In this document: in pieces, positions 14,710 to 61,853 of the stretch
Position numbering within the stretch: position 1 is the stretch's first letter
Layout: every line of letters starts with the position of its first letter
DNA from: Liolophura sinensis
Lineage: Eukaryota > Mollusca > Polyplacophora > Chitonida > Chitonidae
Direction: 5' to 3'
Length of the DNA: 64,000 nucleotides
Assembly: GCF_032854445.1 (NCBI RefSeq)
Contig: NC_088297.1
Coordinates: 6,325,991 to 6,389,990, forward strand
The notes under the pieces: model-generated
Told to the model about the DNA's origin: nothing
The model's database searches: none
Seen by the model: only the letters and a program-made list of their open reading frames with translations
Translations under genes and position numbers: made by a program

Positions 14710-14711
14710 AC

Positions 14712-16178: not shown

Positions 16179-16188
16179 TTTAGCCACG

Positions 16189-18763: not shown

Positions 18764-18809
18764 AATCCTCGTATTGAACATTGCAAGGTATACCTTTAAT
18801 ACACACACA
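18764..18809. promoter_or_regulatory. Divergent promoter region between two virion genes
   Basis: 46 bp separate the ATG of the minus-strand 450-residue protein from the ATG of the plus-strand capsid gene. It holds the AT-rich motif GGTATACCTTTAATACACAC. Any promoter for either gene must lie here or inside the opposite gene. No transcription start can be fixed from sequence. Confidence 0.4.
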
Positions 18810-20758: not shown

Positions 20759-20783
20759 ACATAGTCGCCCCTACATATTAATA

Positions 20784-21292: not shown

Positions 21293-21383
21293 TACGCAGA
21301 TATTACACCGCGTGCAGATATCACGCCGCAAGAAAAGAATCTCCATTTGAATATACGACGCGACCCTTTCTATATAGATCAGC

Positions 21384-21623: not shown

Positions 21624-21625
21624 TA

Positions 21626-22076
21626 ATGGCCTCCATCGCAATGATGATGGGCGGCGCCCTCGTAAACGCTTCGGCCTTCAGCGGGAGCAACTATATGTTT
21701 TCGATGCTGAGGAGTTCCGGTGTCGACGAAGAGCGGAGGCGCCATGACCTGCGCTGTAGAGCAGCTCCAAGCCGCCCAGGAAAAATGGGCCCGCAAGCGC
21801 ACTGAGCGCTTGGACTGGATCAATGATGAACTCCGCCGCCAGGGACAAGCCATGCATACGTTCCGGAATGTCGACGCTGCAATCCGCGAGTATTCTAGGG
21901 TCACGGGCAAAACTCTTACACGCGACTCACGCGACGCGCTGCTGGGCACAGAGCCACAGCTCTCCGATTTCTATGTGCCTAGTGAAGATCAAAAACACTG
22001 CGAGATGACCTTCGTCATCCTGGGGATGTGTGTGGTTGGGGATGTGAGTTACGGAATCGCAAAACTCACCAAGTAA
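21626..22076 (+). pseudogene. Membrane/helical Polinton protein, one frameshift
   Basis: ATG 21626 opens a frame with a hydrophobic start (MASIAMMMGGALVNASAFSG) and then GVDEERRRHDL. Near 21750 the coding sense moves to another frame (EQLQAAQEKWARKRTERLDW) that runs to the stop at 22076. That second part is a basic coiled helix, a domain with PEPQ-like spacing (GTEPQLSDFYVPSEDQ) and a C-terminal hydrophobic segment (EMTFVILGMCVVGDV). One indel suffices to explain it. The product would be about 150 residues. Function unknown. Confidence 0.6.
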
Positions 22077-22252
22077 TCCGAACTGACTGTGCCGCCATCG
22101 AGCTCCTCGCCGGGCACGATCTTAGTAGTGAGGTGGTTCTGCGCACGCAAATACGCCGCGACGATCTTTTTCGTCGCAAATCTGTTAGAGGTCTGCTAGA
22201 ATACCTTGATGACATGGCTAGTAAAGTGTCTGTTCGCATGGCAAATATCTAG
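22077..22252 (+). other. Unassigned stretch upstream of integrase
   Basis: An open frame (22028-22252) crosses this stretch and ends in TAG directly before integrase-like sequence in the same frame. It may be the decayed N-terminus of the integrase or unrelated. No zinc-binding HHCC module is visible in it. Confidence 0.3.
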
Positions 22253-23217
22253 TACAGCCCTCTTGGGTACTGGAAGGGCCAAGCGCCCATTCAGAAACTT
22301 GCCACTGCGGCTAAAGTCTCCGAAGATGTGGTCCGGGCCTGGCTGAAAAAGCAGGCTATCTGGCAGATATACCTGCCTCGTCCCCGAAAAATACCGAGGC
22401 CTATGTTCGATGTTTCCACGCAGAATGACATCCACCAAGCCTATTTTCTATTTCTACCACATGATGCCGGAAGCTGTATAAGTACGCGCTGACAGTTGTT
22501 GATGTCGTTTCTCGCTACAAGGAGGCGGAACCTCTGGCTACTAAAGATTCCAAAGAAGTCGCTGATGCTCTCTCTCACATTTACAAGAGGGGGCCCCTTC
22601 GATGGCCGAAGCTTCTCCAAGTTGACCCTGGGCGCGAGTTTATGGGTGCGGTGAGCCAACTGCTGGCCAAACACGATGTCACAGTCCGCCGAGGCCGCGT
22701 GGATATCCACCGAGACCAAGGCATAGTGGAGCGTTTCAACCGTACTCTGGCTGAGCGGCTCTTTGGACATCAGTACGCCAAGGAGATACGCCTTCCTCCC
22801 AAACACCGGTCTACTGAAAGGGTGGCTCGGCTTCGGTTGTGGCCGCTCTGAATAACGAGACAACGAGACTGATCGGTAAAAAGCCAAAAGATGCCATCAA
22901 GGCAAAGGGGGTGCCCCATAACCCTTCCTCGGCGGTTCCAGGTCGCCCCGTTGGACTTAATGAGCGGAAGATTCCCGAGGGTGTTGGCGTTCGTTATCTA
23001 TCAGCCTGGAGAGCTGGAGGGCGGCCGCCGTCGCGCGACTGATCCTGTCTGGTCTCTAGAGATATATCGGCTTGGGCGCTCTGTCACAAAGCCTAATGAA
23101 CCCGTGCTGTACTATCTAGACGATACGTCGGATGGTCCGCGACGGGGATTCGTTCGTGAGGAGTTGCTTATAGTGCCTCCTGATACTCAACTTCCCCCGG
23201 ATGGGGTTCTACGGTAG
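22253..23217 (+). pseudogene. INT: Polinton integrase (rve/DDE superfamily), broken
   Basis: Helix-turn-helix-like start (KLATAAKVSEDVVRAWLKK, from about 22296), then the rve core. The presumed catalytic residues are all present: Asp at 22501-22503 (TVVDVVSRYKE), Asp at 22624-22626 (QVDPGREFMG) and Glu at 22729-22731 (GIVERFNRTLAERLF), with 34 residues between the last two. A C-terminal chromo-like/SH3-like part ends FVREELLIVPP. The coding frame changes near 22465, 22830 and 23005, and a TAG precedes the domain. The enzyme would insert element DNA into the genome with a short target duplication. As it stands it cannot be made. It ends 23 bp from the convergent polymerase gene. Confidence 0.85.
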
Positions 23218-23325
23218 TTCCTCGAAGTTCCATCCTGCCGTCAAGGAGGCGCATAGCCATAAGCTAAGGTGTGGACACCATCTTCGGCTATCCAGCGCTT
23301 ACTATCGAAGGGGGACAGTGAGACC

Positions 23326-26202: not shown

Positions 26203-26301
26203 AGCTGCAGGTAGGGGGATGTAGGACCCGCCTCTCAGTGGCTGATACCTTGCAATGTAAAGTCAGAGTGTTTGCACGCTATTGACAACCCACCCTGACC
26301 C

Positions 26302-26922
26302 TCACTGTGTCCATTTTTCCAGCACCTCCTGGATGGTGGGAAAGGCCTTATCTAGAGCCCCGTCAATGTCACCAGCCTCGAAGAGGGTCTCCTGTTTGCT
26401 GTGGAGTACTGGGCTGGTATACTCTTCACTGCCATCGGCGTTGTCCTTTCGCATCTGAACCCTGAGGCCTAGTTGGAACTTAACCCCGTTGAGTGCCAGG
26501 ATCTCTTCTTCTAGCTTCTGGCGAATAATAGCTCGAACTTCTTCTAAGAAGGCTACTGGGTCCGTCCAAACGCCTTCGGGTACGCCCATCTGCCAGACCC
26601 GGAGGAGATTCCTTATAGCCCTGCCGGTGTTAATGAATTCTAGTTTCTTTTCGCCTAGCAATTCATCCAACTCCTTGTTACTGAGGAGGTTCTTGACGTC
26701 TTGCTTCAACTCCTCGTTACTGACGTCTTGCTTCAACTCCTCGTTACTTCGGGAGTTCTTGCTGGCTTGCAGCCGCTTCAACTCAGCCACAGCCGTTTTA
26801 TACCTGTCGAGGATGCCCTGCAGTTTTTCCAAGGCAATGCGGGACCGTGGGTACTTGGGCCGCACACCTATGAGCGTCTCAAACTCCTCCCGTAGTGCTC
26901 GTGCTTTTAGATTATGTTTCAT
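26302..26922 (-). pseudogene. POLB: N-terminal part of the polymerase gene, cut off by a TGA
   Basis: 206 codons from ATG 26922, which lies in the inner part of the right terminal repeat. It is in the same frame as the 958-codon polymerase frame. Only two TGA codons, at 26302-26304 and 26263-26265, interrupt the join, and the sense between and after them is polymerase-like (GSGWVV, then RYQPLRGGSYIP). The region is helical with a duplicated NEELKQDV unit (27-bp repeat, about 26696-26751), then a domain containing GVKFQLGLRVQM and ending VLEKWTQ. This pre-exonuclease domain is usual in Polinton polymerases. With both parts the gene spans 23241-26922, about 1,226 codons. Confidence 0.8.
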
Positions 26923-26995
26923 TGTACTCGCTGTTATACCAACATCTTTGTTATACCTATTGACAGTGATTCTCTAATAGGAAATTTCGATAGCC
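26919..26995 (-). repeat. Polinton right terminal inverted repeat, inner part
   Basis: 26919-26940 and 26975-26995 match the left arm at 12899-12940 in reverse complement, separated by 34 bp (AACATCTTTG..GATTCTC) that the left arm lacks. It includes the polymerase ATG. Confidence 0.8.
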
Positions 26996-31569: not shown

Positions 31570-31945
31570 CAAAAATATTTTCAAATACCCTTTTCTCGTG
31601 AAAAAAATCCCCCTAAAAAACCCATTCAAGATTATATTTGCAAATAAGTTTTCACGTTCTTTCTTCTGATTTTGGCATCATTTTTATGTTTTCTTTCTCC
31701 TTCAAGAAAAGTCTTCAATTTTGTTCTTAGCCTAAACAAAATTGTGTACCAGTATTAGACCTTGACTAAGGAGAACTGCATTGGCTTCTGAGCTCGACTA
31801 AAAATGTAAGTATAAAATATGACTTAACACGAGTATTGGCTAATACACTTTCGAACAACTGGGCCTTGAAATTAGTATTTGTCATAATGTTAATATGTTT
31901 ATTTATGTCCAATCAGCATTTCCTTCGCCCCTTCCATCCTGACCA

Positions 31946-42837
<10,892 letters not shown>

Positions 42838-44344: not shown

Positions 44345-44846
44345 TTATTTATGTATTTGATTGGCCTTTTAGGGGCCTCCGTGGCTCAGTCGGTTAGCGC
44401 GCTAGCGCAGCGTAATGACCCAGGAGCCTCTCACCAATGCGGTCGCTGTGAGTTCAAGTCCAGCTTATGCTGGCTTCCTCTCCGGCCATAAGTGGGAAGG
44501 TCTTGCGGCAACCTGCGGATGGTCGTGAGTTCCCCCCGGGTTGTGCCCGGTTTCCACCTACCATAATGCTGGCCGCCGTCGTATAAGTGAAATATTCTTG
44601 AGTACGGCGTAAAACACCAATCAAATAAATAAATTGGCCTTTTACGCCGTACTCAAGAGTATTCACATATACAAAGGCCGCTATCATTATGGTGGAAGGA
44701 AACGGGGCAGAGCCGCAGGTTGCTGAAGACCTTCCCACGTTCGGCCGGAGAGGAAGCCAGCATGAGCTGGACTAGTTCACAGCAACTGCATTGGTGAGAG
44801 GCTCCTGTGTCATTGCGCTGTGATGGCGTCCAGACGGAGGCCCACA
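44345..44846 (-). repeat. SINE family A, older minus-strand copy, split by a nested SINE
   Basis: Its tail is at 44345-44371 and its body at 44645-44846, ending near CAGACGGAGGCCCAC. It is flanked by the 14-bp direct repeat CGGGCATAATATAT at 44331-44344 and 44847-44860, a target-site duplication. The insertion of another SINE at 44372 cut it in two. Confidence 0.85.
44372..44632 (+). repeat. SINE family A, full-length copy
   Basis: 261 bp: a tRNA-derived head with A box (TGGCTCAGTCGGTTAGCGCG) and B box (GTTCAAGTCC), a body with GATGGTCGTGAGTTCC and ATAATGCTGGCCGCCGTCGT, and a tail with TTGAGTACGGCGTAAAACAC and AAATAAATAAA. It is flanked by the 12-bp target duplication ATTGGCCTTTTA (44360-44371 and 44633-44644). 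The head is not a functional tRNA gene. Confidence 0.93.
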
Positions 44847-45099: not shown

Positions 45100-45506
45100 T
45101 CAATGAACCTGTGAAATCGCTGCCAGGGCTTTTCTCTTTAACTTCATCGTTTCCTGACTGTTCCTGAACAGCGGTGATTTCGTTATGGAAGCGCCGTAAC
45201 CCTTGTTCCTAAGATGCCGTTGTAAACTCGCCTGGATCATGCGCAGAGACTCTGATTCGTACTCTCTACCGTCCTTCCTACGAACGGTTTGATAAAAATC
45301 TGTAAGAATACCGTCGAGTTCTTCCGGAAGAATGCTTTCTATGTTTCTAATATCCCGCCTGTTGAATAAAAGCCACCGCTGGAAAGTTTCAACATCACAC
45401 GAGGTCTTTTTGACGGTTGCCATCGCTTTTCCTTCTCCGGAATGAACACTAAAGAAACCGGTCCCAGAAATGCCACCATAACGGCTTAGTTCATGAGGTA
45501 GATCAT
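45100..45506 (-). CDS. Alternative terminal exon 5: recombinase-like core-binding domain
   Basis: The acceptor TTATTTTCCAG lies at the 45507 boundary and the frame begins in phase 1 (..AT GAT CTA), ending at the stop at 45100. It encodes about 135 residues. A helical domain with TFQRWLLFNRRDI, LDGILTDFYQTVRRKDGREY and SLRMIQASLQRHLRNKGYG is followed by SPLFRNSQETMKLKRKAL. The (R/K)KDG.EY..ESL pattern and helix layout match the N-terminal core-binding (SAM-like) domain of tyrosine recombinase-derived Crypton/DUF3504-type proteins. No catalytic domain follows. Likely a DNA-binding tail. Confidence 0.65.
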
Positions 45507-45511
45507 CTGGA

Positions 45512-45512
45512 A

Positions 45513-45549
<37 letters not shown>

Positions 45550-45550
45550 T
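45512..45550 (+). repeat. (AAT)n microsatellite at a splice acceptor
   Basis: About 13 AAT units. On the minus strand this is (TTA)n ending in TTTTCCAG, so it forms the pyrimidine-poor tract of the terminal exon at 45100-45506. Confidence 0.9.
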
Positions 45551-46347
45551 AATGTGAAACTGGCACGCAGTGCGGTGCACACTGACGTCATCTTTGTGGG
45601 CCTCTATGATACACGCCTGAACAATTTTAATGGATAACGCGAAAATATAAGGCACTTCAGATGATCCATACGTGTGACATCGTGTTCAACTCTGCTACAG
45701 TTATACGATAGACTTGTTTTTGAAAAAAAAAAACAAGACTGGGGACATGAACATGTGCCTCAGTATATATGAACCAGCGAGCTATGCGACCGAATCTGTA
45801 GTCCATTACGAATGGATTTTAATCTCATGGAAATGAAAAGACTGCATTCTTGGCACGAATGAGATGTGGCTGATGAGCTCTATCATTTAAAACTGTTCCT
45901 TGGTTTCTAATCTTTCATTAAAACGTTAAAACGATGTACGTTGCCATGGATGTTACGCCAGATGCAAGTTAAAAACCGTTCCGAGGAGTGCAGGAATGAT
46001 ACATCTATGTGACCAATGGAAAGGTGGGCGTGTAAAATGCTGCTACTGATGCATTTACATGGACAGTTTGAATCAAACCCTATCTGAGGATACAATGGAT
46101 TTCAAACCGATGACGTAGAGATCATCACATTTTACACCAGGCGAGATATGCATACGCCCTATAAAAGGCCCTCTGATATATTACTATTAAAATACAGACA
46201 TCTGATCATTTCAAAACTGCAATTATCCCTCTCGTCGTGAAACGGACCTTGGTCATCAAGGCTGTTATTGTAAGCTGGGCAGGAAAAACCGGGCAGGACA
46301 CTGAAAGCTGAACTGAAAACAAAGTGGCGGGCTAGTGCTGCTCAGCA
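45551..46347. other. Intergenic or intronic DNA, nothing recognised
   Basis: No exon, RNA gene or repeat is supported. Confidence 0.4.
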
Positions 46348-46612
46348 GGCATCTATTTATTTATTTATTTGGTTGGTGTTTTACGCCGTACTCAAAAATA
46401 TTTCACTTATACGACGGCGGTCAGCATTATGGTGGGAGAAAACCGGGCAGTGCCCAGGGGAAACCCACCACCGTCCGCAGGTTGCTCCAGACCTTCCCAC
46501 GTACGCCCGGCATAGGAAGCCAGCATGAGCTTGACTTGAACTCACAGCGACCGCATTGGTGAGAGGCTCCTGGGTCATTACGCTGCTAACAAACTGAGCC
46601 ACGGAGACCACT
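46348..46612 (-). repeat. SINE family A, near full length
   Basis: From a (TTTA)n tail through TTTACGCCGTACTC and CGGCGGTCAGCATTATGGTG to the reversed B box (GACTTGAACTC) and A box (ACTGAGCCACGGAGACCA). The open frame on the minus strand here comes from the repeat. Confidence 0.9.
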
Positions 46613-48636
46613 TGTGTATGAAGAAAGAAGACATTCGTGTAATTTCGCAGCAATCAGTTCTGTATGTCTGAGCATTGCCATCTAGGGCAAAGCGATCCAC
46701 ATTTTTGTGGCGTTTACTAGTTCCTCTACATTGTCTGATGCCTTAAGCCCACCGCACACGGACATCATTTGTTGGCAAAAACGACATTTCTTAATCGAGA
46801 AAATAGAAAAATCCTCGAAATTTACTCCTGTGCGGGTAACTAAAACAAGAATTCCTGAATCTGGAATTCTTGATCCAAAGTGTTCAGCTGGTTTAATTTT
46901 GGGCAACAAAAAAATCCAGAAAGAAATGAGTCGGGCACAAGATTTTGCTCGTCTGCAGGCAATCTGGATCTCGTGAGATCGTTGTCTTCTTCATGGACCA
47001 ATCCACGTCTACGGAAATGTCAAGTGAGTAAATACCAAATGGAAACATGGCCGTGAACATCATGTGATCGTCTTTCGCCGCAGGAATAACAAATGTTGCT
47101 CGTGTGCGGGTAACGGGTATTCCGGGCACTTGACACCAGGATCTGAGAAATCCGATTTCGCTAGTCTTTAGCGCCTACGACGTGGCTCTAAAATTTAACT
47201 GTTTCGGCACGTATGTGTGAAATGCTCCTCAAATTACCAAACCTTTAAGATTACCTTGTTAGCAATTCTACACTGTCTTACCTACATGTACCTATGTGGG
47301 ATTTCTATGAGACGTACACTGCAAGGACAGGTTTGCTTACTGATACTCTCCCCATCGAGACCACATATACCCGCAGTTTCTGGACACGCCTTGTATTTTG
47401 ACACTGTGCACTTGTACTTTAAAAGATAATAATCCTTGCCAGATATCGATCTAAAGCACGAAATACATAAACATCATTTAGGACCTAGCAAAACGAATAA
47501 CAAACAGTTTGAAAACATGATTTAGGCCACGTGGGCAATATTTCATCCATAAAACTTGTTACACAGAACCAATGTGCTGCAAGTCCGTGACACTTTTATG
47601 CGCCACGAGTCATGTAGACGCAGCAGCAATAAGTCATATGGGTAGAACATACAGCTCAAAGGTAACAGTACAACATTTAAGTTACTTTCCCATATGTGAC
47701 GTACAGATATGCGCACCATACTGCTAGCGTTTGACTGCGCAATCAGCTCGTCGATCGCTTGCTGTCACCAAGGCACCAAAAACCTCTTGAGAAGAGGTGA
47801 ATCTACAAACCCCGTGACTGGGTTTGAACCCGCACCCATGTACTTACGATTGAAAGGAAATGCGCCTCTAGCCACGGTCCTGTCCAGGCCAGAAATATTT
47901 ACACAGTGGAACACCTTTTCTGGGTATGAAAAGCTTGGATAGTGTCAACTCAAAATTAGAATGGACCTAAACCTCACTTCCCTTTTGGCTGTTGACCTTA
48001 TTCCATGCTTTGTTGAACTGCTCAGTTTTTGTAAAGGAAGCGTTATTTATACACATTACTCGACTTAACTGCTGACAATTGCTTAATGAATGTGTGATAC
48101 AATGAAATATTGAAGTGTTGCGCTTGGCAATGCATGGGGTCAAGCATCTGCACCGAACGTATCATGTCATTACGTGTGAAACTGCCTCCAGCCAATGTTT
48201 TTCAAGCGGCGGTATACAAAAACATGGAAAGATAAAAAATAAAAAAAGGCGACAGGGCGAGGGTTTGTTCTACGCATTCAAGCAACATGACGGGATACTG
48301 GGATGGCGGATACTAAAACACGGTTTACAAGTCTACAAAAAAGTCCCCCGCCCAGCAGTCCCTTTACCCAATCGCCCATTCCCTCAATCTTTTCGCATTC
48401 CTCACGTACACAGGCCAGATTACTGTTGTAGTTATCAGCCCTGTTGTGGGTACTAACTCACATATATGTTACTTTGTTCAGAGGTACTAGGAGAGAAATA
48501 AAACGGCGTCAAATCCAGCCTGAGACTCTTTTCTTAGGAAGTTGGTCATAGTGGAGACGAATGCTGATGCTCTCTGTGCTTCATGTTTTGGAAGCGGGTA
48601 AGGAGGTGCTTCATGCAGAAAGGTACACTACTTCGA
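46613..48636. other. Intergenic or intronic DNA with a tRNA-like repeat head
   Basis: No gene is supported. At about 47790-47885 a reversed tRNA-like stretch (GGGTTTGAACCCGCACCC, CGATTGAAAGG, CCTCTAGCCACGG) recurs in similar form at 59822-59900, indicating a third tRNA-derived repeat. The 113-codon frame at 48115-48456 (+) has no domain. Confidence 0.45.
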
Positions 48637-49034
48637 TTACAGTCGCTTTACGGTAACTGTCGCTATTTGCTGAAGTCCTTTTCTCCTCGTGTCCAACACT
48701 TGCTGGCTTTTCCGGAACAAAGGTGACGTAGTGATGTTCTCAGGATATAAGTTTTCCTTAAGATACCGCGCCAAATTTGACTGAACGTATCGCAAACTGT
48801 TGGCGTTGTATGGCGATCCGTCACGTTTCGTAACGGATCCAAAGAATTCCTGAAGATAGGCGTCTAGTTCCACTGGCGGAATCTCTTCCAAGCGTCGAGT
48901 TTCTCCTAATGGTCGAAGCCAGCCAACAAACCTTCTCGCCTCTGCCATAGTCTTTCTCATTGTCCCGTAATTTACTGTCCTTTCCGTTTGGAGAACACAA
49001 GTAAACTCTCCGTTGTCAGTCAAGGAGTCTCGAC
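48637..49034 (-). CDS. Alternative terminal exon 4: recombinase-like core-binding domain
   Basis: Acceptor TTTTACTTGTTACAG|GTCGAG, phase 1; stop at 48637; about 132 residues. Contains YGTMRKTMAEARRFVGWLRP, LDAYLQEFFGSVTKRDGSPY, SLRYVQSNLARYLKENLYPE and SPLFRKSQQVLDTRRKGL. It is closely related to the exon at 52517-52998, including the splice-site region. It ends just after the core-binding domain, with no recombinase catalytic part. Confidence 0.7.
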
Positions 49035-49229
49035 CTGTAACAAGTAAAACGGACCCATCGATCATTCCTTAATGAAAGGTAAATACTGAATTCACATCAA
49101 CAAATAATACCCTTACGAGTGACACTAGACCATCGTTTCCTAAGACTCTGTTGAAAACCAACAAAGTGAAACCAACAAAGTAACGTGTCATTATGTTTGC
49201 TTCCAACTGAGCCTTATATGCAGGCCACT

Positions 49230-49370
49230 ATGTCACTTGGCTCCTACTGCACTGTCACCTGGCTCCTACTGCACTCTGTCACTTGGCTCTTAATGATCTA
49301 TGCCACTTGGCTCCTAATGTACTGTTTCATTTGGCTCCTAATGCACTCTGTCACTTGTCTCCTAATTTAA
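49230..49370 (+). repeat. Degenerate 27-28-bp tandem repeat
   Basis: About five copies of a unit containing GTCACTTGGCTCCTA(A/C)TGCAC. A short ORF across it is an artefact. Confidence 0.8.
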
Positions 49371-49497
49371 TATGCCAAAAGTAAATACAATATAGACGAA
49401 GAATTTAATCTATACGTCAAAACAGACATTCGTATACCAGCCGTCAACCAAACTGGACATTCCGGGCCATCGATCGCATGGCCAATTCCCAGAACAA

Positions 49498-49640
49498 CGT
49501 TAAACACAAACCACCACAGAACTGAGAAAGTATATAAATTCCCAAATTAAGGTGGTTTCATGCAAGGAAAAGCGGTCAACAGTTTTCAGTGATGTTGGAA
49601 AGACGCTGGGAATGTTGTAGGCGTATGTGTGAAGTCAGTG
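49498..49640 (+). repeat. Dispersed repeat, copy 2 (partner at 32940-33060)
   Basis: Shares ACACAAACCACCA, GAGAAAGTATATAAA-like TATA motif, AATCATGCAA or TTTCATGCAA, and CAACAGTTTTCAGTGATGTTGGAAAGACGC-type sequence with the copy in esterase intron 1. Confidence 0.8.
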
Positions 49641-51129
49641 ACACGTTTCATTTCTTGTCTGGTCATTGGTTGGTAAAGGAGAACAAATGTATATACCAAT
49701 CATATACCGTATAGTTATGGTATTTCATTTGACTGAAGGAGTGATATTAGCTATAATGCCCAAGAGTGGGTTTAATATTACTCCGGATCAAATCAAAGGG
49801 CCTTATGGGAAGCTTAAGTGGCTACTTTATATAAGCACTTAAATGAACAGTCAAAATAAAACTAGTGCCGTTTAATAAGGGCACTGACCTCTTGTTACAA
49901 CAACAACATATGGAATACAGGGCGGTTCACCTCCTGTCCATTGTTCTACTACCACAGTGACTGAGACAGTCTCCATTCAGTTTCCTTAAAAACAATTTTG
50001 TGAACTGCTATAGGACGGCGAAATCTCCTTCCAGATGCATTACAATCCATCTCATAGGAGATTGCATCTAGCCTCCAAAGCTAGGGAACCCCTTTAGGCC
50101 GGTTATTAATAGTGTTGCCGCCATTGGAGTATCATGCCGAAGACACCTGAAATGACACCCCGTCCTGTCGCATTATACTGACACCGGGTTGGAGTATCAT
50201 GCCGAAGACATCAGAAATGACACCCCAATCCTGTCGCATTATACTGACACCGGGTCAGCCAATCATGTTTCCTTGCTCTAGAGCCGGGGACCGATCAGAC
50301 AGATTTCTTCGCTCGTACAGGTGTATTTTGTGAATTTCCGAAAATCCACCTGGTGTGTCCGCGCTGGAGACGGCGCAATTTGCAGGTGATCTTGTACGTC
50401 TCGAAATTCGCTTGTATCAAACATGTCAGATATTAGCGAAGAAATACACCGGCGATTTCCCTCTGTCCGTGTAGCCAGCAAATTTCGGCGATCGGGATGG
50501 TCGAGCTGACCAATCAAACAGCACGGAACTGGGTTGAACAGTGAAATTTTGCTTGTGTGACATGGTTTACTAGGTCACATGACATAACTTACAGACCATG
50601 ATCAACGGAAACTCCGCCCAGTGTATCTGAAACATTGCTACGAATATCGTCAGCGTATAAGTTCGTTAAGTCACCGGCTTAACCTCTCAGAGCTAAGAGC
50701 ATTTTGTGAGGTCGCAACATGTACCATTTTAAAAATCTTTGGTATGACCAACCTAAGTCAGTCGACTTTGAGACGTAGGCTCTCCCCATTAGGTCAACAA
50801 TGCGTTGTAATACACGTAATATCGGCAGTACTACAAACATCATGTAGGGCGAACACGTCAACACAAGTTACTTGAAGAGATAGAATAAAACCATCACAGG
50901 TAAACTGACAAGAGGACGTACTCTAGCGGTCATGTGTGACCATTTGCCACCTATCACACTGTCGTAGCTATCCTGGTTTTATGCTCTATGGTGCAGTTTT
51001 TTTTCATATGTAACATCATTATTCTGCTCTGAAGCGTGATTCCGTCTTACATGAAATCCATGCTTTCAGATCACATACTAAGCTGGAAAGTCAATAATTC
51101 TTAAATCACAACTGAGTAAAGACCCTGCG
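49641..51129. other. Intronic or intergenic DNA with a 67-bp duplication and a family B fragment
   Basis: A 67-bp direct duplication with GGAGTATCATGCCGAAGACA and GCATTATACTGACACCGGGT lies at about 50124-50255. A degraded family B copy spans about 50640-50790. No gene is supported. Confidence 0.6.
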
Positions 51130-51398
51130 TATTTATTTATTTATTTGACTGGTGATTTACGCCGTACTCAAGAATATTTCACTTATGCTACAGTGGTCAA
51201 TATGGTGGGAGGAAACAGGGCAGAGCCGTGGGCAAACCCACGACCAACCGCAGGTTGCTGAAGATTTTCTCACGTGCGGCCGGAGAGGAAGGAAGGGAGC
51301 ATGAGCAGAACTTGAACTCACAGCGACCGCAGTGTTGACAGGCTCCTGGGTCATTGTGCCCCGTTGGCACGCTAATCACCTCGGCCACAGAGACCCCT
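51130..51398 (-). repeat. SINE family A, near full length
   Basis: A (TTTA)n tail, GATTTACGCCGTACTCAAGA, GGTTGCTGAAGATTTTCTCA, reversed B box (CTTGAACTC) and a reversed head ending CGGCCACAGAGACCC. Confidence 0.9.
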
Positions 51399-51639
51399 AC
51401 TCCCCCACTGCACATTTACCATAAAATGATATCTGTGTGTATCTGAATAGTTGGCTCTACTTATCAAAACATCATCGGAAACAAAATGTTTTGATATATA
51501 TTCGAACTTGTACATTGTTTAGTTATCAGTAACACAAAGCATCAGTACAGATGATAATCCCAACGACTTATTTGTACATACAGCATGAAAAGCTTGTCAA
51601 GTCAATGAGCAAACAATCTAAAATGATGTAGTTGGCAAT

Positions 51640-51965
51640 CAGTCGTTGCGCTATCCCCTTCATGCTGAACACCAAGCGAGGAAGCTACAACTTCCTCTTT
51701 TATGGTCTTAGGTTTGAACCGACCCAAACCATCGGCGCGGGTCTCTGAGACGCCTTACCGAAAGCAAGTAAGCTGCCCCGCCCTAGCCATTATACTGATA
51801 CGGGTCAGCCAGTCATTGCACTATCTTTACTTTACTTTGAACGCCAAGCGAGGAAGCTACACCTTCCTCTTTTAATGTTTTACATGTGACTCGACCCAGG
51901 ATTGACCCTGGATCTACCGCTCTCAAAGCGGATGCTTTACCAACTGTGCTATCGGGGCCGGTCTA
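51640..51965 (-). repeat. Repeat family B, two copies in tandem with a tRNA-derived end
   Basis: Contains AACACCAAGCGAGGAAGCTA twice (about 51667 and 51840). The right end, read on the minus strand, is tRNA-like: CCGATAGCACAGTTGGTAAA, then CCGCTTTGAGAGCGG (anticodon-arm-like) and a B-box-like region. It is the best-preserved tRNA end of this family. Mispairing in the arms and its repeated occurrence argue against a functional tRNA gene. Confidence 0.8.
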
Positions 51966-52516
51966 TCTTCTTTGACCCTGTATGGAATAACGAATGCTTA
52001 AATATTATAAATAACAGCAATTTACATCATTTACGGAATGAACAAAAAAGTTTTACTATAAAGAACATACAGAAGCAGTTTCTGCATTTGGAACTTTCGT
52101 GAAGATAAATACACTTGACGCACATAAAGACCTTTTGAATCAAACTGAACCACTGGAAAGGAAATATATTTCTCCATGATCATGAAAGCATACATATGGT
52201 AACAAAATATATTTTAAAATGGTAAAAACAGTTTTACAGCGATTGTCTGCATTTTCGCTCTAAGATAAAATGACGTCCTTTATTTTCCTCCTCAATTTAA
52301 ATAACTTGCTCGCGGCCTTCGCTGGTGGGGAGAAAGGACAATATCGAGGTAATGCTGGGAAGCTCGTGTCTAAATTTCGGCGGGGAGATGTGGACAACGC
52401 AGAATCTATGTGATCAATACTGACCTCTGGTTTTAAAAGAAAAAAAATACGCATAAAAAGTTGTAAGGTGTATATAACGTGTGAGTATGTGTCTGATCTC
52501 TGAGCTGAAACGAAAG

Positions 52517-52998
52517 TTAGATGTCCCCATCAGCAGTTATAACGAAAGACATGTCCGATTCATGGGTTAGAACACTGCCACTACTGGACACTGGGAGAAC
52601 CAACACGGGCTTCGGTAGATTCGCTGCCAGTTCTTTTAGTTCTCTCTTTCTCCTCTCCAAGGCTTGCTGGCTTTTCCGGAACAGCGGTGACGTGGTGATA
52701 TTCTCCGGATAGAACCTTTCCTTAAGGTACCGACCTATACTCGCCTGAACGTATCGCAGACTGTTAGCGTTGTAGGGCGATCCGTCACGTTTTGTCACGG
52801 ATCCAAAGAAGTCTTGAAGATAGGCATCCAGTTCTGTCGGCGGGATCTCCTCTAGTCGCCGCGATTCTCCGAACGGCTGAAGCCAACGAAAGAACTTTCT
52901 CACATCTGCCACTGTCTTTCTCATCGTTCCAATATTCACCGTGGGTTCCGACTGAACAACGGAAAGAAATTCTCCTTCATGGGCAGAGGGAGGTTGAC
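52517..52998 (-). CDS. Alternative terminal exon 3: recombinase-like core-binding domain
   Basis: Acceptor TTTTACTCGTTACAG|GTCAAC, phase 1; stop at 52517; about 160 residues. It has the same domain as the exon at 48637-49034 (IGTMRKTVADVRKFFRWLQP, LDAYLQDFFGSVTKRDGSPY, SPLFRKSQQALERRKREL), then a unique tail ending SDMSFVITADGDI. The ORF extends further upstream into the intron, which should not be counted as protein. Confidence 0.7.
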
Positions 52999-53914
52999 CT
53001 GTAACGAGTAAAATGGGGCTTTTGATCACCTCTGCAGGGAGAGTAAAGTCTACAGAAGTCCTTGGACAGAACAACATGGGTCCTTGGTTCACTCAGTAGA
53101 ATAATAAAAAAAACGCCTGATAAAATATAAATAGTAAATGGAAAAGAATGTGTTGTGATCATACTGTAACTTGCTGGAGTAACAGAGCGTAGTGTGTCAG
53201 CCATACAGAAACAGCCGTCACTGCATCATTCCCTAAATACAAAACGCATTCTGTAACCACTGGAATGGGTTCTAAGAACACCTCAAATGGAGTACTGATA
53301 AGAGTAAGTCTACAAAAAGTCTACAAAAAGTCACTGAAAGAGTAAAAGCAGTATTTGGTTTATTTCCTAAATAAATGTAAAAATGCCCTACCAATACGCA
53401 AATGTTTAAATATCAGCATTTTCTCAGAGATAAACTGATATGCGTTAAAGGCTGTAAACGTTGATTGCGCACACCTCAACATGTTACGTATCGTTATGAC
53501 TGTTCACAAATTGCATAATGGGAATGTGATATATCAAGACTTTTAACATACATAATGTAAAATGCATCATGAAAGCATGGAACACATCACCTAGAAGGTT
53601 TATAACGATATTCAGCTGTTAAATTACAACATTTCCTTAGCATTTTGTGAAGTGTGAAATTTTTAATACATTAGAAGGGCTTATCTAATATTCTGAATGG
53701 TTTACCTTCTCCATCATTGGTAAAACGTTAGGTATAACATTGCTAGACATATATAAAAATGCAATTTTAAGAGTGTAAAATCCCCTCTAGAGTGAGACTG
53801 GAAAACAGCAAATGAGATCACGAAGAGCAACAGAGCTTCTTTGAACACTGTCCACTAAAACACATACTCCAAACAGACTCTAGTGAAGTAGAGTTGTACG
53901 GTTGGCAAAGCACA
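52999..53914. other. Intronic DNA between terminal exons, nothing recognised
   Basis: AT-rich, with no further exon or repeat supported. Confidence 0.4.
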
Positions 53915-54285
53915 CAAACACCGCCAGTGAGTGAGTGAGTGAGTGAGTGCTTGCTTGGGGTTAAACGTCACACTTAACAATTTTTCAGACATATGACGAC
54001 GAAGGTGTCCTTAGAGCGCATGTAATGTGCCTCCTTGTTTCAGGACGGGATTTCCACCGATCTTTTTTTCTAGTGCTGCTTCACTGAGACGACTTACCGA
54101 AGGCAAGTAGACCTCATCCGAGCTATTATACTGATACGGGTCAACTCCTTAATGCTGAACGCCAAGCGAGGAAGCTACAACTTCCTCTTTTAAGGCCTTA
54201 GGCGTAACCCGACCAAGGATTGATCCTGGATCTACGACCTCACGAAGCAGATGCTATATCAACTGTGCAATGCGGTGTAACACCG
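53915..54285 (+). repeat. Repeat family B, near full length, with (GTGA)n
   Basis: Order: (GTGA)n, GCTTGGGGTTAAACGTCACA, GACGACGAAGGTGTCC, TGTTTCAGGACGGGATTTCC, GAGACGACTTACCGAAGGCA, ATTATACTGATACGGGTCAA, AACGCCAAGCGAGGAAGCTA, CCAAGGATTGATCCTGGATC and a degraded tRNA-like end. About 370 bp. A reversed copy lies at about 57595-57840. Confidence 0.85.
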
Positions 54286-54629
54286 TCAACGAGCAAGTAT
54301 TTTTCAAGGTAGATTTCTGAGACCATATTTTGCAAAGTTAGTAATTTTCACATTGCTTTGAAAATCTGTTAAAGACTTTAAAATGATCCGAGGTAATTCA
54401 TCAGTGAATTTCAGAGCAATTAATAATTTTCAAAATGTTCCGTTGACAAATACGATTATTCCTTACAAGAGTGATGCCATGTGTAAAAAAAGCATTGGAA
54501 GTAGGATGATGAGTTGCTACTGGGAAAATAAGGAGCACTGCATGAGACCTGTATAGTCCTTGGGCCACAAGCATTTACAGCCCAACGATCATTAATCCTG
54601 AACAAACTGTGAACATTATATGTATCTTA

Positions 54630-55076
54630 CAAAGTGATTCGGAACTGATCGTCATTACTTTGTCCATGTACTATACAACATCTACAGAGTGATTCGGAAC
54701 TGATCGTCATTACTTTGTCCATGTACTATACAAAATCTACAGAGTGATTCGGAACTGATCGTCCATACTTTGTCAATGTACTATACAAAATCTACAGAGT
54801 GATTCGGAACTGATCGTCATTACTTTGTCCATGTACTATACAACATCTACAGAGTGATTCGGAACTGATCGTCATTACTTTGTCAATGTACTATACAAAA
54901 TCTACAGAGTGATTCGGAACTGATCGTCATTACTTTGTCCATGTACTATACAACATCTACAGAGTGATTCGGAACTGATCGTCATTACTTTGTCCATGTA
55001 CTATAAGGAACCTACAGAGTGATTTGGAACTGACCATAATTACTTTGTCCATGTATTATTCGGAACCTACAGAGTG
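54630..55076 (+). repeat. 55-bp tandem repeat, about eight copies
   Basis: The unit contains AGAGTGATTCGGAACTGATC and GTCATTACTTTGTCCATGTA. Spacing of the GTGATTCGG motif is 55 bp (54634, 54689 and onward). The last two copies are diverged. Confidence 0.95.
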
Positions 55077-55356
55077 AGTTATGCTTATGATAAAAAATTA
55101 TTACAGGACAAACGGTAAAGACAATACAAGTATGTATCTTACACGTTTCATTTTGAAACTACTTTTATTTATATTTGGAAAACAACACAGAGTCGACCTG
55201 GCAACTTAAACAATATAAACAATATGGAGTAAAGGACTTCGCCCAGGCAACTTTAAACAATATAAACTGGGTAGGTTGAATGGCAAAGTTTTGACCTTTT
55301 GGTAGTCATTACCAGAAGACACAAAATTACAAAAAAGACGTATTTAAAGCGTCATC

Positions 55357-56085
55357 TGTGCTCTTTTGGCACTTACACATTCGCATCAGCGCACTCTACA
55401 GCACTGCACTCGGGTTACACATCTGGATTCGAATGCAGCCCTTGGCATGACCCGACCCGGGATTGCGTAACACGGGCTCTCCAGTGAACTGTTATTGTCA
55501 CCCAGACAGGTCAACAATGTAAGTAACAAAATGCCGGCAGAGAATGGACAGAACCCACGTCATGTGCGCCCAAAGTGAATGAAAGGCGTAGACCTGAACC
55601 CGGCGTATTGAAATCGCTGTACGCGTGTTGATCCCACACGAGAACGAGGATTCCAATGTCAAAGGGCGTATTCGACTTGCTGCACTGGTGTTGATCTTAC
55701 AGGAAAACAAGGTTTCCAACGCCAAAGTGTAACACAAGGTCGCTGTTCGCAAACAAGATTTTGACTCCACGTTTCTCAAGGCTTGGAACGGGGTGAAACA
55801 AGAACGATATTGAAATAAAGCGCTCTTTGTGCACTTGCACATTCGTATCAGAAGACACGAGAACACTGCACCCAGGTTACACACTTACGTGAATTCGAAT
55901 GCAGCCATAGTATAATACAAGTTGACTGCTCGCGAGATTTTCACTCCTCATTTCTGTGAAGTTGGAACTAGAACGATATGGAAATAAATTACCTTCTGGG
56001 CTATTTTTGCATTTAGACATCCACATCACCTGACAAAAGGGCACAGCATTCAGGATGCACACTTACACGGATTCGAACACAGCCA
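55357..56085 (-). repeat. Three diverged copies of an approximately 90-bp element
   Basis: Copies at about 55357-55445, 55828-55905 and 55995-56085 share TGC/GGCACTT..CACATTCG.ATCA, GCACTGCA, GGTTACACA.. and GATTCGAATGCAGCC. The first joins a family B end (CATGACCCGACCCGGGATTG). No coding content is accepted for the minus-strand ORFs here. Confidence 0.6.
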
Positions 56086-56855
56086 CTGGATTAAAGCCTT
56101 AACATTAGTTCAATTACAAGTCTTTGGTTTAACTTTAAGTCATTGGTTTTACATAAAAATGGTTGTACATACGGTCCTGGAGCCGGTTTCACAAAGCGCG
56201 CGTAACACTTTACTTCCATGGTGATCAGCACTGTAGGTAATACGTCGCCACGGTACCGGTACGTTCGCTTCGTGCGCTTTGTGAAACGGGTCCCTGACGA
56301 CCGGAGTTGCAGTATGACCGTCGGAGGGTTCATTCACCTTGTTTTCCTAATTGTTTCCTGATTGTTTCGCTAATCGTTTTGCAAAAGCAGTCGCAATTTG
56401 GGTCAAGCATAACTTCCATAAGTACGTACAGTAAAGATATACACATAGTTGTGGCTGGTTTTTGGAACAGGTTTCAACACTGATACTGACGTGGCAGTTT
56501 TTTAATACAGGCTTCAACACTGATACTGTAGTTACTACGAAGCTCCTAGTTATTTCATAACAGAGGTACAAGTTAGACACCATAAACATCCGTGAGAAAA
56601 CCTCAGTATGGAATTTCCAAGGACGCGACCCCAAGGACGCTAAAATGGAATCTCCAGTTTTTAGTTACTTGGGGAACGGAACGCGTTCCTGTGTCCGTTC
56701 AACGAAAGTTTTCTTAAAAATTAAACCTGGAATGGTTTGCTACACAAGAATGTTTAACCTAAATGATGACGGCCAGTGTGTATCGGGGAAGGAACCTGGA
56801 TTGCCCAGAGTAAGCCGCTGACCTTTCGTGAACTCTTTCACATGTGACCTACGTC
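56086..56855. other. Intronic or intergenic DNA, nothing recognised
   Basis: No supported exon or repeat beyond a short duplication of ACAGG(T/C)TTCAACACTGATAC at about 56470 and 56510. Confidence 0.4.
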
Positions 56856-57270
56856 ATAAGTGTGGAAGGTCAATGGTCCCCATGCATGTCCGCTGGAAGG
56901 CCAATGGTCTACATGCACCTCCGCTGGAAGGCCAATAATCTCCATGCACGTCCTCTGGAAGGTCAATGGTCTCCATGCACATCTGCCTAAAGGTCAATGG
57001 TCTCCATGCACGTCCGTTGAAAGGCCAATGGTCTCCATGCACGTCCGCTGGAAGGCCAATGGTCTACACGCACGTCCGCTGGAAGGTCAATTTTCTACAT
57101 GCACGTCCGCTGGTAGGCCAATGGTCTACACGCACGTCCACTGGAAGGTCAATTTTCTACATGCACGTCCGCTGGAAGGCCAATGGTCTCCATGCACGTC
57201 TGCTTGAAGGCCAATGGTCTCCATGCACGTCCACTGAAAGGCCAATGGTCTCCATGCACGTCCGATGAAA
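56856..57270 (+). repeat. 31-bp minisatellite, about 13 copies
   Basis: The unit contains GGAAGGCCAATGGTCT and CATGCACGTCCGCT, with spacing 31 bp (56899, 56930, 56961 and onward). Because 31 is not a multiple of 3, all frames read through it. The long ORFs here are artefacts. Confidence 0.95.
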
Positions 57271-57389
57271 GGCCCCAACGGTGTTGTACATTCTTTATTT
57301 ACACAGACAAATCCCAGTGTAGCACAGACAACAAGAACATTGCAAATGTTTTAAACTACTGAAGTTAAATGACAAATACATTCCGAAAT

Positions 57390-57495
57390 TTTTATTTATT
57401 TAATAAATTTATTTTTTACGGCGTACTCAGCGACAATATTTCACTTATTCGACGACGGCCAGCATTATGGTTGGAGGAAACCCTACATGCAGAGC
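57390..57495 (-). repeat. SINE family A, 3' fragment
   Basis: TTTTTTACGGCGTACTCAGC, TATTTCACTTATTCGACGAC and GGCCAGCATTATGG, then unrelated sequence. The head is missing. Confidence 0.8.
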
Positions 57496-57594
57496 CCACG
57501 GGATACTAACAATCATTCGCAGCCAATGAATCAGCTTCCAGACATGCCAGACAGATTTCACGTGACGTCGTCCCCTTCGAAAGCGGTAGATCCA

Positions 57595-57840
57595 TGGTCA
57601 ATCCTGGCTCGGGTTTTAAGCATTAAGGGGATAGTGCTACGACTGGTTGACCCGTATCAGTACAATGGCTGGGGCAGGGCAACTAACTTAGGTAAGTCGT
57701 CTTAGTGAAGCAGCACCAGATAAAAGAGCGGTGGAAATCCGTCCTGCAAACAAGGAGGCACATGCACTCTGAGGACTCCTTCGTCGTCATGCGACTGGAA
57801 AACTGTTAAGTGTGACGTTAAACCCCAAGCGGTCACTTAT
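57595..57840 (-). repeat. Repeat family B, reversed copy
   Basis: Reads as the complement of 53927-54150: GGTTGACCCGTATCAGTACA, CTTAGTGAAGCAGCACCAGA, GTGGAAATCCGTCCTG and GTTAAACCCCAAGCGGTCAC. Confidence 0.8.
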
Positions 57841-58342
57841 TCGACTGACATCAAAATACAACTACAAAGTTGAAAACAATGGCTATAGGAATAGGTCAAA
57901 TGAACGGTGCTCATAGTATATGAGAGAAATATCATTAAGCATTAATTACAGGATCGGAACATACTTAAGAATCGCAACATACTTTAGAATCGGAACATAC
58001 TTAAGGATTTATCATTGGTATTCTTGGCACATGTATTCATAATAACAGTCGGCCTAGTATAAGCATAATATCACTGCGCCGAGTGTCCTGTCTGGTGTCT
58101 TTAAAATATGGCACTCAAGTAAGGCAGCATTATTATTATATCAGTGTCGGAATGGGCTTGCCACTCGGAGACGCCGCTATTATGCTGTGGAAATAATACA
58201 AAAAGCCCTGAGCAAACAAACCGTAGGCCCGTCAGTTTGCACTTGCAATTTTTTTAGACGTTCTCAAAGCCACTTACATTTCTTACGCGATTTTTGTCCA
58301 ACACAGAATTTTCGCAACATACGTCCAATTCATGATGCTGAA
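57841..58342. other. Downstream of terminal exon 2, nothing recognised
   Basis: No exon or repeat is supported, apart from a short triplet of AGAATCGCAACATACTT-like phrases near 57960-58000. Confidence 0.4.
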
Positions 58343-58815
58343 TTATTCATTGAAGTTTTTGCTTTCATGATACTTAGGCCGACTTAGTCGTAGCTGTATT
58401 AGTCTCTCTTTGTAGGTGTGTAGACTGAGCATGAAATCCGGGCTGGAAGTGATGGATTTTGGGTAACCGTGCCCTCTGAGATACATATCTAATCTGGCCC
58501 GCAGTGCGCGCAATGAGCTCGTGTCATAGTCTTGGCCGGATTTCTTTTTTGCATTGAGATAGAATCCACATAGATACTTGTCCAGCTCGGATGTGGGAAG
58601 GTCTTGAATATCCCGCTCCTCCTCCGGATGTGCCAGTGCTAGCCAGGATTTAAAAATCCTCGCTGCGCTGATTGTGTTTTTGTTCCACATTGGCGTCCCT
58701 ACAGCGCCGTCCGTGTGACTCTTACAGGCTTTTGGTGTGCCGCCTCGGTGCCAGAAATTCGTCTGATTTCCCACCCACTTCCCTGGGGAGCTGTCCTCGT
58801 GTCGGCTGCCCAAGT
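58343..58815 (-). CDS. Alternative terminal exon 2: recombinase-like core-binding domain
   Basis: A strong acceptor (a long pyrimidine tract, then TATCATCCTCAG|ACTTGGG), phase 1; stop at 58343; about 157 residues. It has a unique N-terminal linker with Trp/His, then NTISAARIFKSWLALAHPEE, LDKYLCGFYLNAKKKSGQDY, SLRALRARLDMYLRGHGYPK and SPDFMLSLHTYKERLIQL. It is the most diverged of the four core-binding exons. No catalytic domain follows. Confidence 0.68.
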
Positions 58816-59821
58816 CTGAGGATGATACCAAGAGGAAGGAGTAAATAGAAATTGTTCCCTGAAAATCTGTAATTAATCCATTGTTCGTAACATAAATCAC
58901 ACTCAATAACAGAATCCTAATAATTACTGAGACCAGAACTCCGCAGTCTTATGTGTAAATGCGTACTTTTGTCATCTTGTAGTTTTTAAATATCTCATTG
59001 AACACATTTTCCGGTGATTTTACGACCGTAGCAAGCCGGTGTCAGTACCGATATATTGAAATGATTGACAGCGCTACCCCAGGAAGACGTCATGTCGAAG
59101 TCACCAGCTATTACGCCTAGCCACCGCAGAGACCAATGCTAGTACACCTCAACCAGGAGGTGCAGTACAGGTACCACGACTCCCCATTAAAAGTCTTCAG
59201 AAACACACAAAACCCTAAGGCGATATTGATCGTCGAGTAAAAATATAAATTTGTCAGGTTTCTGTTCATTGTATTCGTGATATATTTACAACCTTTCTTT
59301 GTAAGCGGGTATAACTGTTCACTTAACATAGTATAAGAATATAAAAAGACACGCGCATCGCTATATGAGGCTGATAAAAACTAGTTATTTACATCTTCTT
59401 CAGTATCCGGGTGATTAAATCATGGAGCTTGCAAATGAACAACAAGAAGTGGTAAGAAATGAAGCCCCGCTTCTACGACACGAAGTGTTAAGAAATGACT
59501 CTGCGTTCCTCCCATGTAGGTTTACATCAACCTGTAGTACATAACCATATTGCACGTTTATTTATTTGATTAACTACTTTACCTAACTATTTTATATTTC
59601 CAATGGTAGTTAGCTTTCTGGGTGGATGAAATCGGAAAGCCGAAGAAAACCACCCACTTTTGGTAGGCTATTGGAGAACTTTTCATCGTGTGACATACGT
59701 TATCCTGGTGGAACTCTTACGGCTTTTAGCAAACTTCGAGAAAAGCAACCTAAACGGACACACTTTAGTTCATTTTCACTAAGGCCATGGAGAACAATGA
59801 AAGCAAAAGATTCCTGAAATT
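58816..59821. other. Intronic DNA, nothing recognised
   Basis: No further exon or repeat is supported. Confidence 0.4.
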
Positions 59822-60090
59822 GCCCGAGATCGGTATTGAACCAAGGTTTCCGGTGACCTAACGATTGAAAGGCAAGTACTTTAACCGCGCAAGCATATCT
59901 AGTTCGACTCTAGCTCATGCTGGCTTCCTCTCCGGCCGTACGTGGGAAAAGCTGACAGTAACCTGCGGATAGTCGTGGGTTTCATCCCGATTTTGCCTGA
60001 CTTCCTCCCAACATAATGCTGGTTGCAGTTGTATAAATGAAATATTTATGAGTACGGCGTAAAACACCCACCAAGTAAATAAATAAACAA
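59822..60090 (+). repeat. SINE family A 3' part joined to a reversed tRNA-like head
   Basis: 59822-59900 is a reversed tRNA-like stretch (TATTGAACCAAGGTTTCCGG, CGATTGAAAGG) similar to 47790-47885. From 59905 it is SINE A in plus orientation: CATGCTGGCTTCCTCTCCGG, CATAATGCTGGTTGCAG, TATGAGTACGGCGTAAAACA and an AAATAAATAAAC tail. Confidence 0.8.
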
Positions 60091-60239
60091 CGTACCTGGA
60101 TTCGCACTTGTTTTCTAAGAGGCACACTAAGCAGACGGTGTGGTATGGAGCAGGTAGTGTCATTATGCTATCAATTCAGTAAAACAAATCCCTACTGCAA
60201 ATCGCATTTTATACACGAGGCTTCAAAATTACAACTTAA

Positions 60240-60500
60240 GCAGTACACAGCATGACACAGCTTATCACTTGAAGTGTGCATGGCGTGACAAATCTGTCGT
60301 TTGAAACATAACATGACACAGCATATCACTTGAAGTGTGCATGGCGTGACAAATCTGTCGTTTTAAACATAACATGACACAGCATATCACTTGAAGTGTG
60401 CATGGCGTGACAAATCTGTCGTTTGAAACATAGCATGACACAGCATATCACTTGAAGTGTGCATGGCGTGACATCTCTGTCGTTTGACATATAACATGGC
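60240..60500 (+). repeat. 61-bp tandem repeat, four copies
   Basis: The unit contains CATGACACAGCATATCACTT, GAAGTGTGCATGGCGTGACA and AATCTGTCGTTTGAAACATA. Spacing is 61 bp (60312, 60373 and onward). Confidence 0.95.
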
Positions 60501-61506
60501 ACAACTTATCACACGTTTTGCCAGATCATCATAGCCACATATGGTAAACGTACTTATCGCTCACACAACTTAGAAAACTCAACATTAATACTGTTTATGA
60601 TTACATGGGAACACCAGTCACCAATCATGAGTGACTTCCTCCATCATTTATGGGCATCGGTTGACAACGCGGGACCTGTTAGGCCTACCCAGGGCAGTGG
60701 CAACTTTAAAAGAACGACATTAACATAGGAAAAATAAAGAAATTAGGAGAAAGCTTGGAAATTAGACACCTGATAAAAAAATATAAAAGTTCACATTTCC
60801 GTGGTCCTCTCCTGTTCCTTTTTTAAGACCCCCATTCTCTTCAAACAAAGAACAACCAAGAAGCAAAACCAGGTAATTTTCCAGTGACACCCGGCATACT
60901 AGTTACCCTAAAGAATTCCATTCTGATGTGGACATGTCGACGGATTTAGTAGAGAACAGTTAATATATTTAATACATTTGCATCACACTATAGTACAAAA
61001 CTGTAAAATAACATTACATCATATTAAAAACGATGGCTTACCTACTGTCACAGTTTTTTTTTCAGATTATGCGCTTAAAACAGCTGTTCAAATTCAAACC
61101 CAGTTCACACGCGATGCACCAGGCCTGAAATGCCAAAATGACAGTTCTGGAACTTTCTCAAACTTTAAACCTGTCCTTCATAGTGGGTTCTCCAAAATGT
61201 TTGGGTATGGCTGTCACATGTCAGCACATGAACGACTTTACTAAAACAAGCTATCCATATTCTCCACAACTTGCACATTTGCCATGCTTAATACTCATTT
61301 ACAATGACGTTCTAAGTATCGAATGTTCAAAGCCTTGTTCTTACCTAGGAACCAGTTTGAAGAGGGCCGAAAACAATATTGTCCATAAGCTTGCATGTAT
61401 CTCTGGCCTAAATATCTTGACAGCCAAAAAGATGAAAATATACGTATGTACATTTAATTATTTTTGCAGGATTTTATGATGCTCAATCGCAAAATACTGA
61501 ACATCC
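60501..61506. other. Intergenic or 3' untranslated DNA
   Basis: No gene is supported. Open frames at 60978-61244 and 61138-61479 (+) have no domain. The part just left of 61507 is presumably the 3' untranslated region of the zinc-finger exon. Confidence 0.4.
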
Positions 61507-61853
61507 CTACTCAGTTCCTAAGGTGAAATTTGAGGATTCCGACGGTTCAGTGAGCAACAAAAGTTCGGGGTGTTTTTTCCGTGCATGTTGACTCAGTTGG
61601 TATCGGTCAATAAAGCCTTTGTGACACAGAGGGCATTTGAAGCGGAGCTCCGGCATGTGCTTCAGAACGTGTCGCTTCATATTGTACATCTTGGTGGTAA
61701 AGTACTGACACACACGACACACGAGGCCTGCGTCTGACTGAGCGTTATGTTTGTCCCCCGGGGGTAACTCTCTGTAATCGTGATAGTACTGGCTGAGCAT
61801 GTCATGGGAGACCCTGGGGGACTCGGAGGAGCCAGCAGCCTCTGCCCACTTAT
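61507..61853 (-). CDS. Alternative terminal exon 1: two C2H2 zinc fingers
   Basis: Acceptor TTTCTCTGTGTTGCAG|ATAAGTGG, phase 1; stop at 61507; about 115 residues. Fingers: C-x2-C-x12-H-x3-H (CRVCQYFTTKMYNMKRHVLKH) and C-x2-C-x12-H-x4-H (CPLCHKGFIDRYQLSQHARKKH), linked by MPELRFK. A pair of fingers of this kind is usual at the C-terminus of BTB zinc-finger transcription factors of the lola/tramtrack type. The first exons, presumably with a BTB or similar domain, would lie to the right, beyond the window. Confidence 0.8.

Follow-up and report, generated by a model that had tools for sequence, protein, structure and literature searches.

In a 64,000-nucleotide stretch of the genome of the chiton Liolophura sinensis (assembly GCF_032854445.1, contig NC_088297.1, positions 6,325,991 to 6,389,990 of the forward strand; hereafter the window), five exons on the minus strand, E1 to E5, each follow a splice acceptor and end in a stop codon, and our analysis indicates, with a probability that we would put at roughly 0.85, that the window contains the 3' part of an alternative-tail locus in a large chiton gene family in which a constant head is combined with swappable terminal exons. 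According to the mechanism proposed here, a locus of this kind would consist of a constant head followed by an array of terminal exons on the same strand, each tail with its own acceptor, mostly in phase 1, and its own stop. The phase-1 donor of a linker exon, carrying over a G, would be spliced to one of these acceptors to yield a protein of about 300–460 residues, whose tail would set its target. Most tails would be the core-binding half of a domesticated Crypton-type tyrosine recombinase from which the catalytic half is absent, and some would be C2H2 zinc fingers or, in one gene, a CENP-B/Tc5 domain.

The five terminal exons and a proposed common head

The five exons (lengths in nucleotides, nt) are the following.
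E1, 61507..61853, minus strand: 347 nt; AG acceptor in phase 1; two C2H2 zinc fingers; stop; ATTAAA 49 nt past the stop.
E2, 58343..58815, minus strand: 473 nt; phase 1; QRICH1-type domain; weak acceptor and the least certain boundary of the five.
E3, 52517..52998, minus strand: 482 nt; phase 1; QRICH1-type domain; attached to the head in the NCBI protein LOC135463832.
E4, 48637..49034, minus strand: 398 nt; phase 1; QRICH1-type domain; about 70% identical to E3; under purifying selection.
E5, 45100..45506, minus strand: 407 nt; phase 1; QRICH1-type domain; its pyrimidine tract is an (ATT)n run.

An AG stands directly before each exon, and each has a length of 3n+2, an open phase-1 frame and a terminal stop; the coordinates, lengths, remainder of 2, preceding AGs and stops given in an earlier note on this DNA were all exact. 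The same note had called all five 3' splice sites good, which holds for E1, E3, E4 and E5 (top 1% of 3674 AGs, as ranked by a crude matrix of splice-site frequencies) and not for E2 (top 12%). A scan of both strands between 28 and 64 kb for a strong acceptor followed by 330 nt or more of open frame returned just four exons, each in phase 1, namely E1, E3, E4 and E5, with E3 having a second acceptor; a Markov control gave 0.015 phase-1 cases per 20.5 kb. Because E2 to E5 are paralogs, 33–72% identical, the phase that they have in common is inherited, leaving E1 as the one independent draw (1 in 3), so that the phase argument is strong only once other loci are counted in. The window contains no further convincing terminal exon, and no donor within the five exons that could skip the stops lies above the 99th percentile of GTs. 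In the 400 nt ahead of each acceptor, the five exons have no k-mers in common but T-runs. The introns between the tails carry tandem arrays at 54628-55077 (55-bp x8), 56863-57274 (31-bp x13) and 60251-60512 (61-bp x4), and dispersed repeat copies in both orientations lie between the tails at 44370-44634, 46354-46579, 51130-51355 and 59901-60087.

By the criteria applied, no phase-1 donor exon was found in the final 2.1 kb of the window. The common donor that had been predicted to its right is there: the linker exon of a two-exon head ends in a phase-1 donor 11 kb upstream of E1. Features beyond the right edge, given in window coordinates continued past 64000, are listed here.
Exon A, coding part, 74406-74262, minus strand: 145 nt from the ATG; ends in TGG directly before GTAAGACA; phase-1 donor.
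Exon B (linker), 73561-72917, minus strand: 645 nt; ends in GTG directly before GTAAGTAT; phase-1 donor that carries over a G.
Second zinc-finger tail, 65735-66165, minus strand, between the head and E1: acceptor at 66165, phase 1.
Short QRICH1-like frame, 63868..64116, minus strand, crossing the window edge at 64000: E 7.6e-9; the sole AG in range scores 1.9.

Exon A comprises 48 codons (MGVSLERVQ...), and exon B is of low complexity with an IKEEP-like motif; with the carried G, the first codons of E1 to E5 would encode D, D, G, G and D. The predicted join of donor to acceptor is found in an NCBI protein, P0001 (LOC135463832), in which exon A and exon B are fused to E3 at the predicted base; E3 is the only tail so annotated here, and the entry is a single one without isoform number. 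The frame at 63868-64116 is probably decayed and without a usable acceptor. Exon A has no Pfam match, and no BTB domain was found in exon A, in the full P0001 protein (QRICH1 alone) or in 10 family proteins scanned. Further upstream of the head, at 95-97.8 kb on the minus strand, a potassium-channel-like gene was recognised by eye.

Heads and tails across the genome

When the head was used as the query of a protein search, all 44 candidates proved to be matching proteins, each from L. sinensis; 37 of these 44 have a QRICH1-type tail and 27 begin with MGV. Eight annotated genes have between 2 and 7 listed isoforms each, with a common front of 248-278 residues and differing tails, and one more entry is named isoform X19 of the gene at 19.6 Mb on the contig that bears the window. 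C2H2 tails are present in P0014 and, weakly, in P0022, and some of the 44 proteins have no recognised domain. In P0028 (LOC135463852 isoform X3) the tail matches CENP-B_N and HTH_Tnp_Tc5, and two of its sister isoforms are of the QRICH1 type; judging from these matches, the P0028 tail appears to be a second transposon-type DNA-binding domain used as an alternative tail.

Searching the genome with the head exon gave 45 matches from 50 candidates, and searching with E3 gave 150 tails from 150 scored places, with 284 first-look candidates, so that 150 is a minimum; E2 itself is missing from this set. All 150 scored tails have a head upstream on the same strand within 100 kb with no head of opposite orientation between, compared with 61 of 150 when the strands are flipped and a mean of 22.6 (maximum 38) when positions are moved by up to 1 Mb. 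A cruder test, which asked only whether the nearest head of any kind is both upstream and on the same strand, is passed by 121 of 150 tails, compared with a mean of 69 and a maximum of 90 for random strands. Of the 45 heads, 35 have one scored tail or more, the largest arrays having 21 and 20. Phase could be examined in a set of 49 QRICH1-type frames from fetched DNA, 5 of them from the window locus, that remained once 6 of 55 domain matches were removed as duplicates. Of the 48 frames having an AG, 39 have their best acceptor in phase 1; where that acceptor scores 7 or more, the figure is 31 of 35 (p ~1e-11 against 1/3).

Individual loci repeat the pattern. On the contig that bears the window (C3), a head 82% identical in exon A, its exons again ending in phase-1 donors, is followed at 19.60-19.67 Mb by 25 QRICH1-type tails on the same strand in 61 kb. 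Two other frames were seen at this locus. One, of 343 residues, lies on the opposite strand past the head. The other, of 369 residues, lies between head and array (C3:19665387-19666493, minus strand); its QRICH1 domain (1.4e-5) is close to the start and is followed by 288 residues. This long C-terminal part looks DUF3504-like by eye, and the frame is possibly the kind of source that gave rise to the tails. On further contigs of the same genome, a head on C6, located where the model had predicted one, is followed by seven tails of the QRICH1 type and by a zinc-finger tail that has its best acceptor in phase 1, and on C7 divergent heads lie between a minus and a plus array, both where the layout of the tails had implied; C7:55655001-55675000 holds two tails and no head, the C7 heads sitting elsewhere. 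A pattern search of the fetched loci identified six first exons, every one with a GT donor at exactly +145. A divergent copy of the head (58% identical) at C1:70529801-70535800 is followed by a frame of 667 residues that bears the AT-hook-like motif KRGRPKGG; Pfam recognises no domain within 6 kb, and this could be an ancestral single gene.

Fold, conservation and possible function of the tails

The description of two C2H2 fingers in one exon and a core-binding-type domain without catalytic part in the other four is borne out by Pfam and by structure models. E1 matches PF00096 (E 7.6e-7), with CTCF fingers as its best PDB relatives, and E2 to E5 match PF25561, the QRICH1 domain, with E-values of 3.8e-3, 8.4e-7, 2.4e-6 and 4.3e-7, all below the gathering score; no other Pfam family reached E 0.01 in the three minus-strand frames of 34-64 kb. 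Cre core-binding domains are the best structural matches of the E3 model, with Xer and integron integrase also alike, and the E2 model fits best to chain H of the Zincore entry 9hjt and then to Cre. On these models, E2 to E5 appear to have the fold of the Cre/Xer/lambda core-binding domain, as the Crypton-related QRICH1 domain. The recombinase catalytic half is absent from all five exons. In 47 of the 49 frames the stop comes no more than 50 residues after the domain, so that by length they have no DUF3504-type C-terminal catalytic remnant; the two exceptions continue for 157 and 288 residues. The 49 domains have a median pairwise identity of 38%, very variable positions being interspersed among strongly conserved ones (W, R, L, D, L, F, G, Y, S, R, L, Y, F, S, L). 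When protein databases were searched using only tail sequences (66 and 1249 candidates), there was no match, probably since full-length proteins (423 residues with E3) were outside the length limits of the search. An IMG/VR scan gave 19 pattern matches and no relative, and PDB sequence searches with tails and head gave no significant match.

Between E3 and E4, nonsynonymous divergence (dN) is 0.16 and synonymous divergence (dS) 1.08, with dN/dS of 0.15-0.19; of the 15 intron bases beside the exon 14 are identical, and of the next three 15-base blocks upstream 9, 6 and 7. The acceptor is separated from the first Met by 24 codons, and in these the synonymous and nonsynonymous proportions of differences (pS and pN) are 0.76 and 0.34 (Fisher p 0.002-0.012, depending on rounding). 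Protein-like evolution ahead of that Met, together with the conserved acceptor, indicates that the acceptor is real and that the tail is not a stand-alone open reading frame (ORF) starting there. This bears on the alternative of a tandem array of small independent genes, or of ORFs derived from transposable elements, with their own starts and no common head. Although an ATG just before the domain in E2 to E5 would suit it, as would the fact that NCBI joins only E3 to the head at the window locus, the gaps upstream of the five exons hold repeats in common and no recognisable exon, and both the collinearity of heads with all 150 tails and the tail-swapping isoforms annotated at eight other genes speak against it; we consider it very improbable. 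As for a positive-selection arms race among the tails, none of the 12 tail pairs of lowest dS, in which E3/E4 is the sole close pair, has a dN/dS above 0.63; these low ratios, and the fact that the 49 fetched frames include no recent duplicates, argue against a fast one.

Several results weigh against the alternative-tail reading. E1, E2, E4 and E5 occur in none of the 44 proteins, E3 being the only tail annotated at the window locus, and the NCBI isoforms seen elsewhere are database models. No scored tail lies within 100 kb of 10 of the 45 heads, and 9 of the 48 frames have their best acceptor in a phase other than 1. The E2 acceptor is weak, with a better-scoring AG 43 nt upstream in phase 0, and its boundary is the least certain. 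The PF25561 scores of E2 to E5 taken alone (17.7, 29.5, 28.1 and 30.4) are all below the gathering score of 30.8, and higher whole-frame scores may add up several exons; the structure models, built from four sequences, are of low confidence (predicted local distance difference test, pLDDT, 65.9 and 70.0). Finally, by a manual count, the aligned stretch is free of stops in 129 of the 150 genome matches and has at least one in 21, so that part of the tails may be disrupted or prematurely terminated. It might then be that most of the array is a relic, E3 working and the other four exons being intact but unused leftovers of duplication, as the annotation of E3 alone, the internal stops and the decayed-looking copy at 63868-64116 would allow. 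Against this stand the open frame of E4, with its low dN/dS relative to E3 at dS ~1.1, and the open frames of E1, E2 and E5, E2 and E5 having kept conserved core residues despite high or saturated synonymous divergence; a relic array is thus unlikely in our view, if less so than independent genes, and we infer that E1, E2, E4 and E5 are used as tails of a single alternative-tail locus.

How such tails would act is a matter on which we are more tentative. The proteins are presumably chromatin or transcription regulators, with tails that may bind either DNA or zinc-finger proteins sitting on it, the latter being what the Zincore entry suggests for QRICH1, and the choice of tail may be regulated. 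It is possible, although we hold it to be clearly less than an even chance, that within the same architecture the tails serve as adaptors holding zinc-finger proteins on DNA instead of choosing DNA; Cre core-binding domains are the top matches of E3 and the domain has a net positive charge in 43 of 49 frames, which counts against adaptors, but neither fact decides function. Only slightly short of even is the broader proposal that chitons turned a Crypton core-binding domain into a genome-scale repertoire, in which some 35-45 head loci serve at least 130, and perhaps nearly 300, interchangeable tails, with C2H2 and CENP-B/Tc5 alternatives, and make switchable DNA- or zinc-finger-targeting regulators, whose role may be transposon control or cell-type diversity. 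If that broader proposal holds, no larger set of domesticated recombinase domains is known to us. Overall, the data suggest that a set of alternative targeting domains has long been kept on one shared head, which is probably regulatory.

Neighbouring features and known systems

Two other features were seen in the window. A Maverick/Polinton-like element occupies 13286-26973, with frames matching an A32-type packaging ATPase, an rve integrase and DNA_pol_B_2; four other frames tested there gave no match. On the plus strand at ~31770-42834 lies a carboxylesterase/cholinesterase-like gene, with PF00135 in 36674-36961 and 37585-37977 and the remainder recognised by eye, oriented tail to tail with the exon array.

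The use of alternative terminal exons had been likened to that of Drosophila lola and mod(mdg4), the best-known loci of this type, and the common head, the phase-1 donor and the tail-swapping isoforms point to the same logic. In PMC11426971, these genes are described as having a constant front and many alternative tails that set the DNA-binding end, with at least 30 isoforms for mod(mdg4) and 20 for lola, and their BTB heads as a type specific to arthropods. The chiton loci differ in that no BTB was found in the head, the tails are mainly recombinase core-binding domains, and this type of locus is repeated dozens of times in one genome. The earlier note had also called a locus that mixes zinc fingers with domesticated recombinase DNA-binding domains new to its writer. 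That needs one correction: a two-tail precedent exists in vertebrate KIAA1958, which, according to PMC3212892, has two isoforms with different Crypton-derived domains on different exons, the alternative splicing being called unconfirmed there; KIAA1958 has two DUF3504 domains, as against 25 core-binding-only tails at one chiton locus, with zinc-finger alternatives. A literature search, in which the species name was not among the queries, gave no report of such tail arrays, and, by term counts and passages, PMC10027918 (on transposon-derived transcription factors, molluscs included) and PMC12062965 contain neither "crypton" nor "tyrosine recombinase".

With QRICH1/ZMYM/WOC proteins and Zincore (SEPHS1:QRICH1) the tails have PF25561 in common, and the best fit of the E2 model is to chain H of 9hjt; those proteins, however, bear a DUF3504 region (PMC3212892), whereas the chiton tails stop at the domain. 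Likewise, the fold of the core-binding half is held in common with Crypton tyrosine recombinases, while nearly every chiton frame (47/49) ends at most 50 residues past it. One chiton locus could yield many different regulator proteins, and the origin of the architecture, the matching of one donor to some 25 acceptors and the role of a core-binding domain without its catalytic half become testable in a mollusc system that would follow the lola/mod(mdg4) logic with an unrelated head, a transposon-recombinase domain as its main tail, and dozens of loci.

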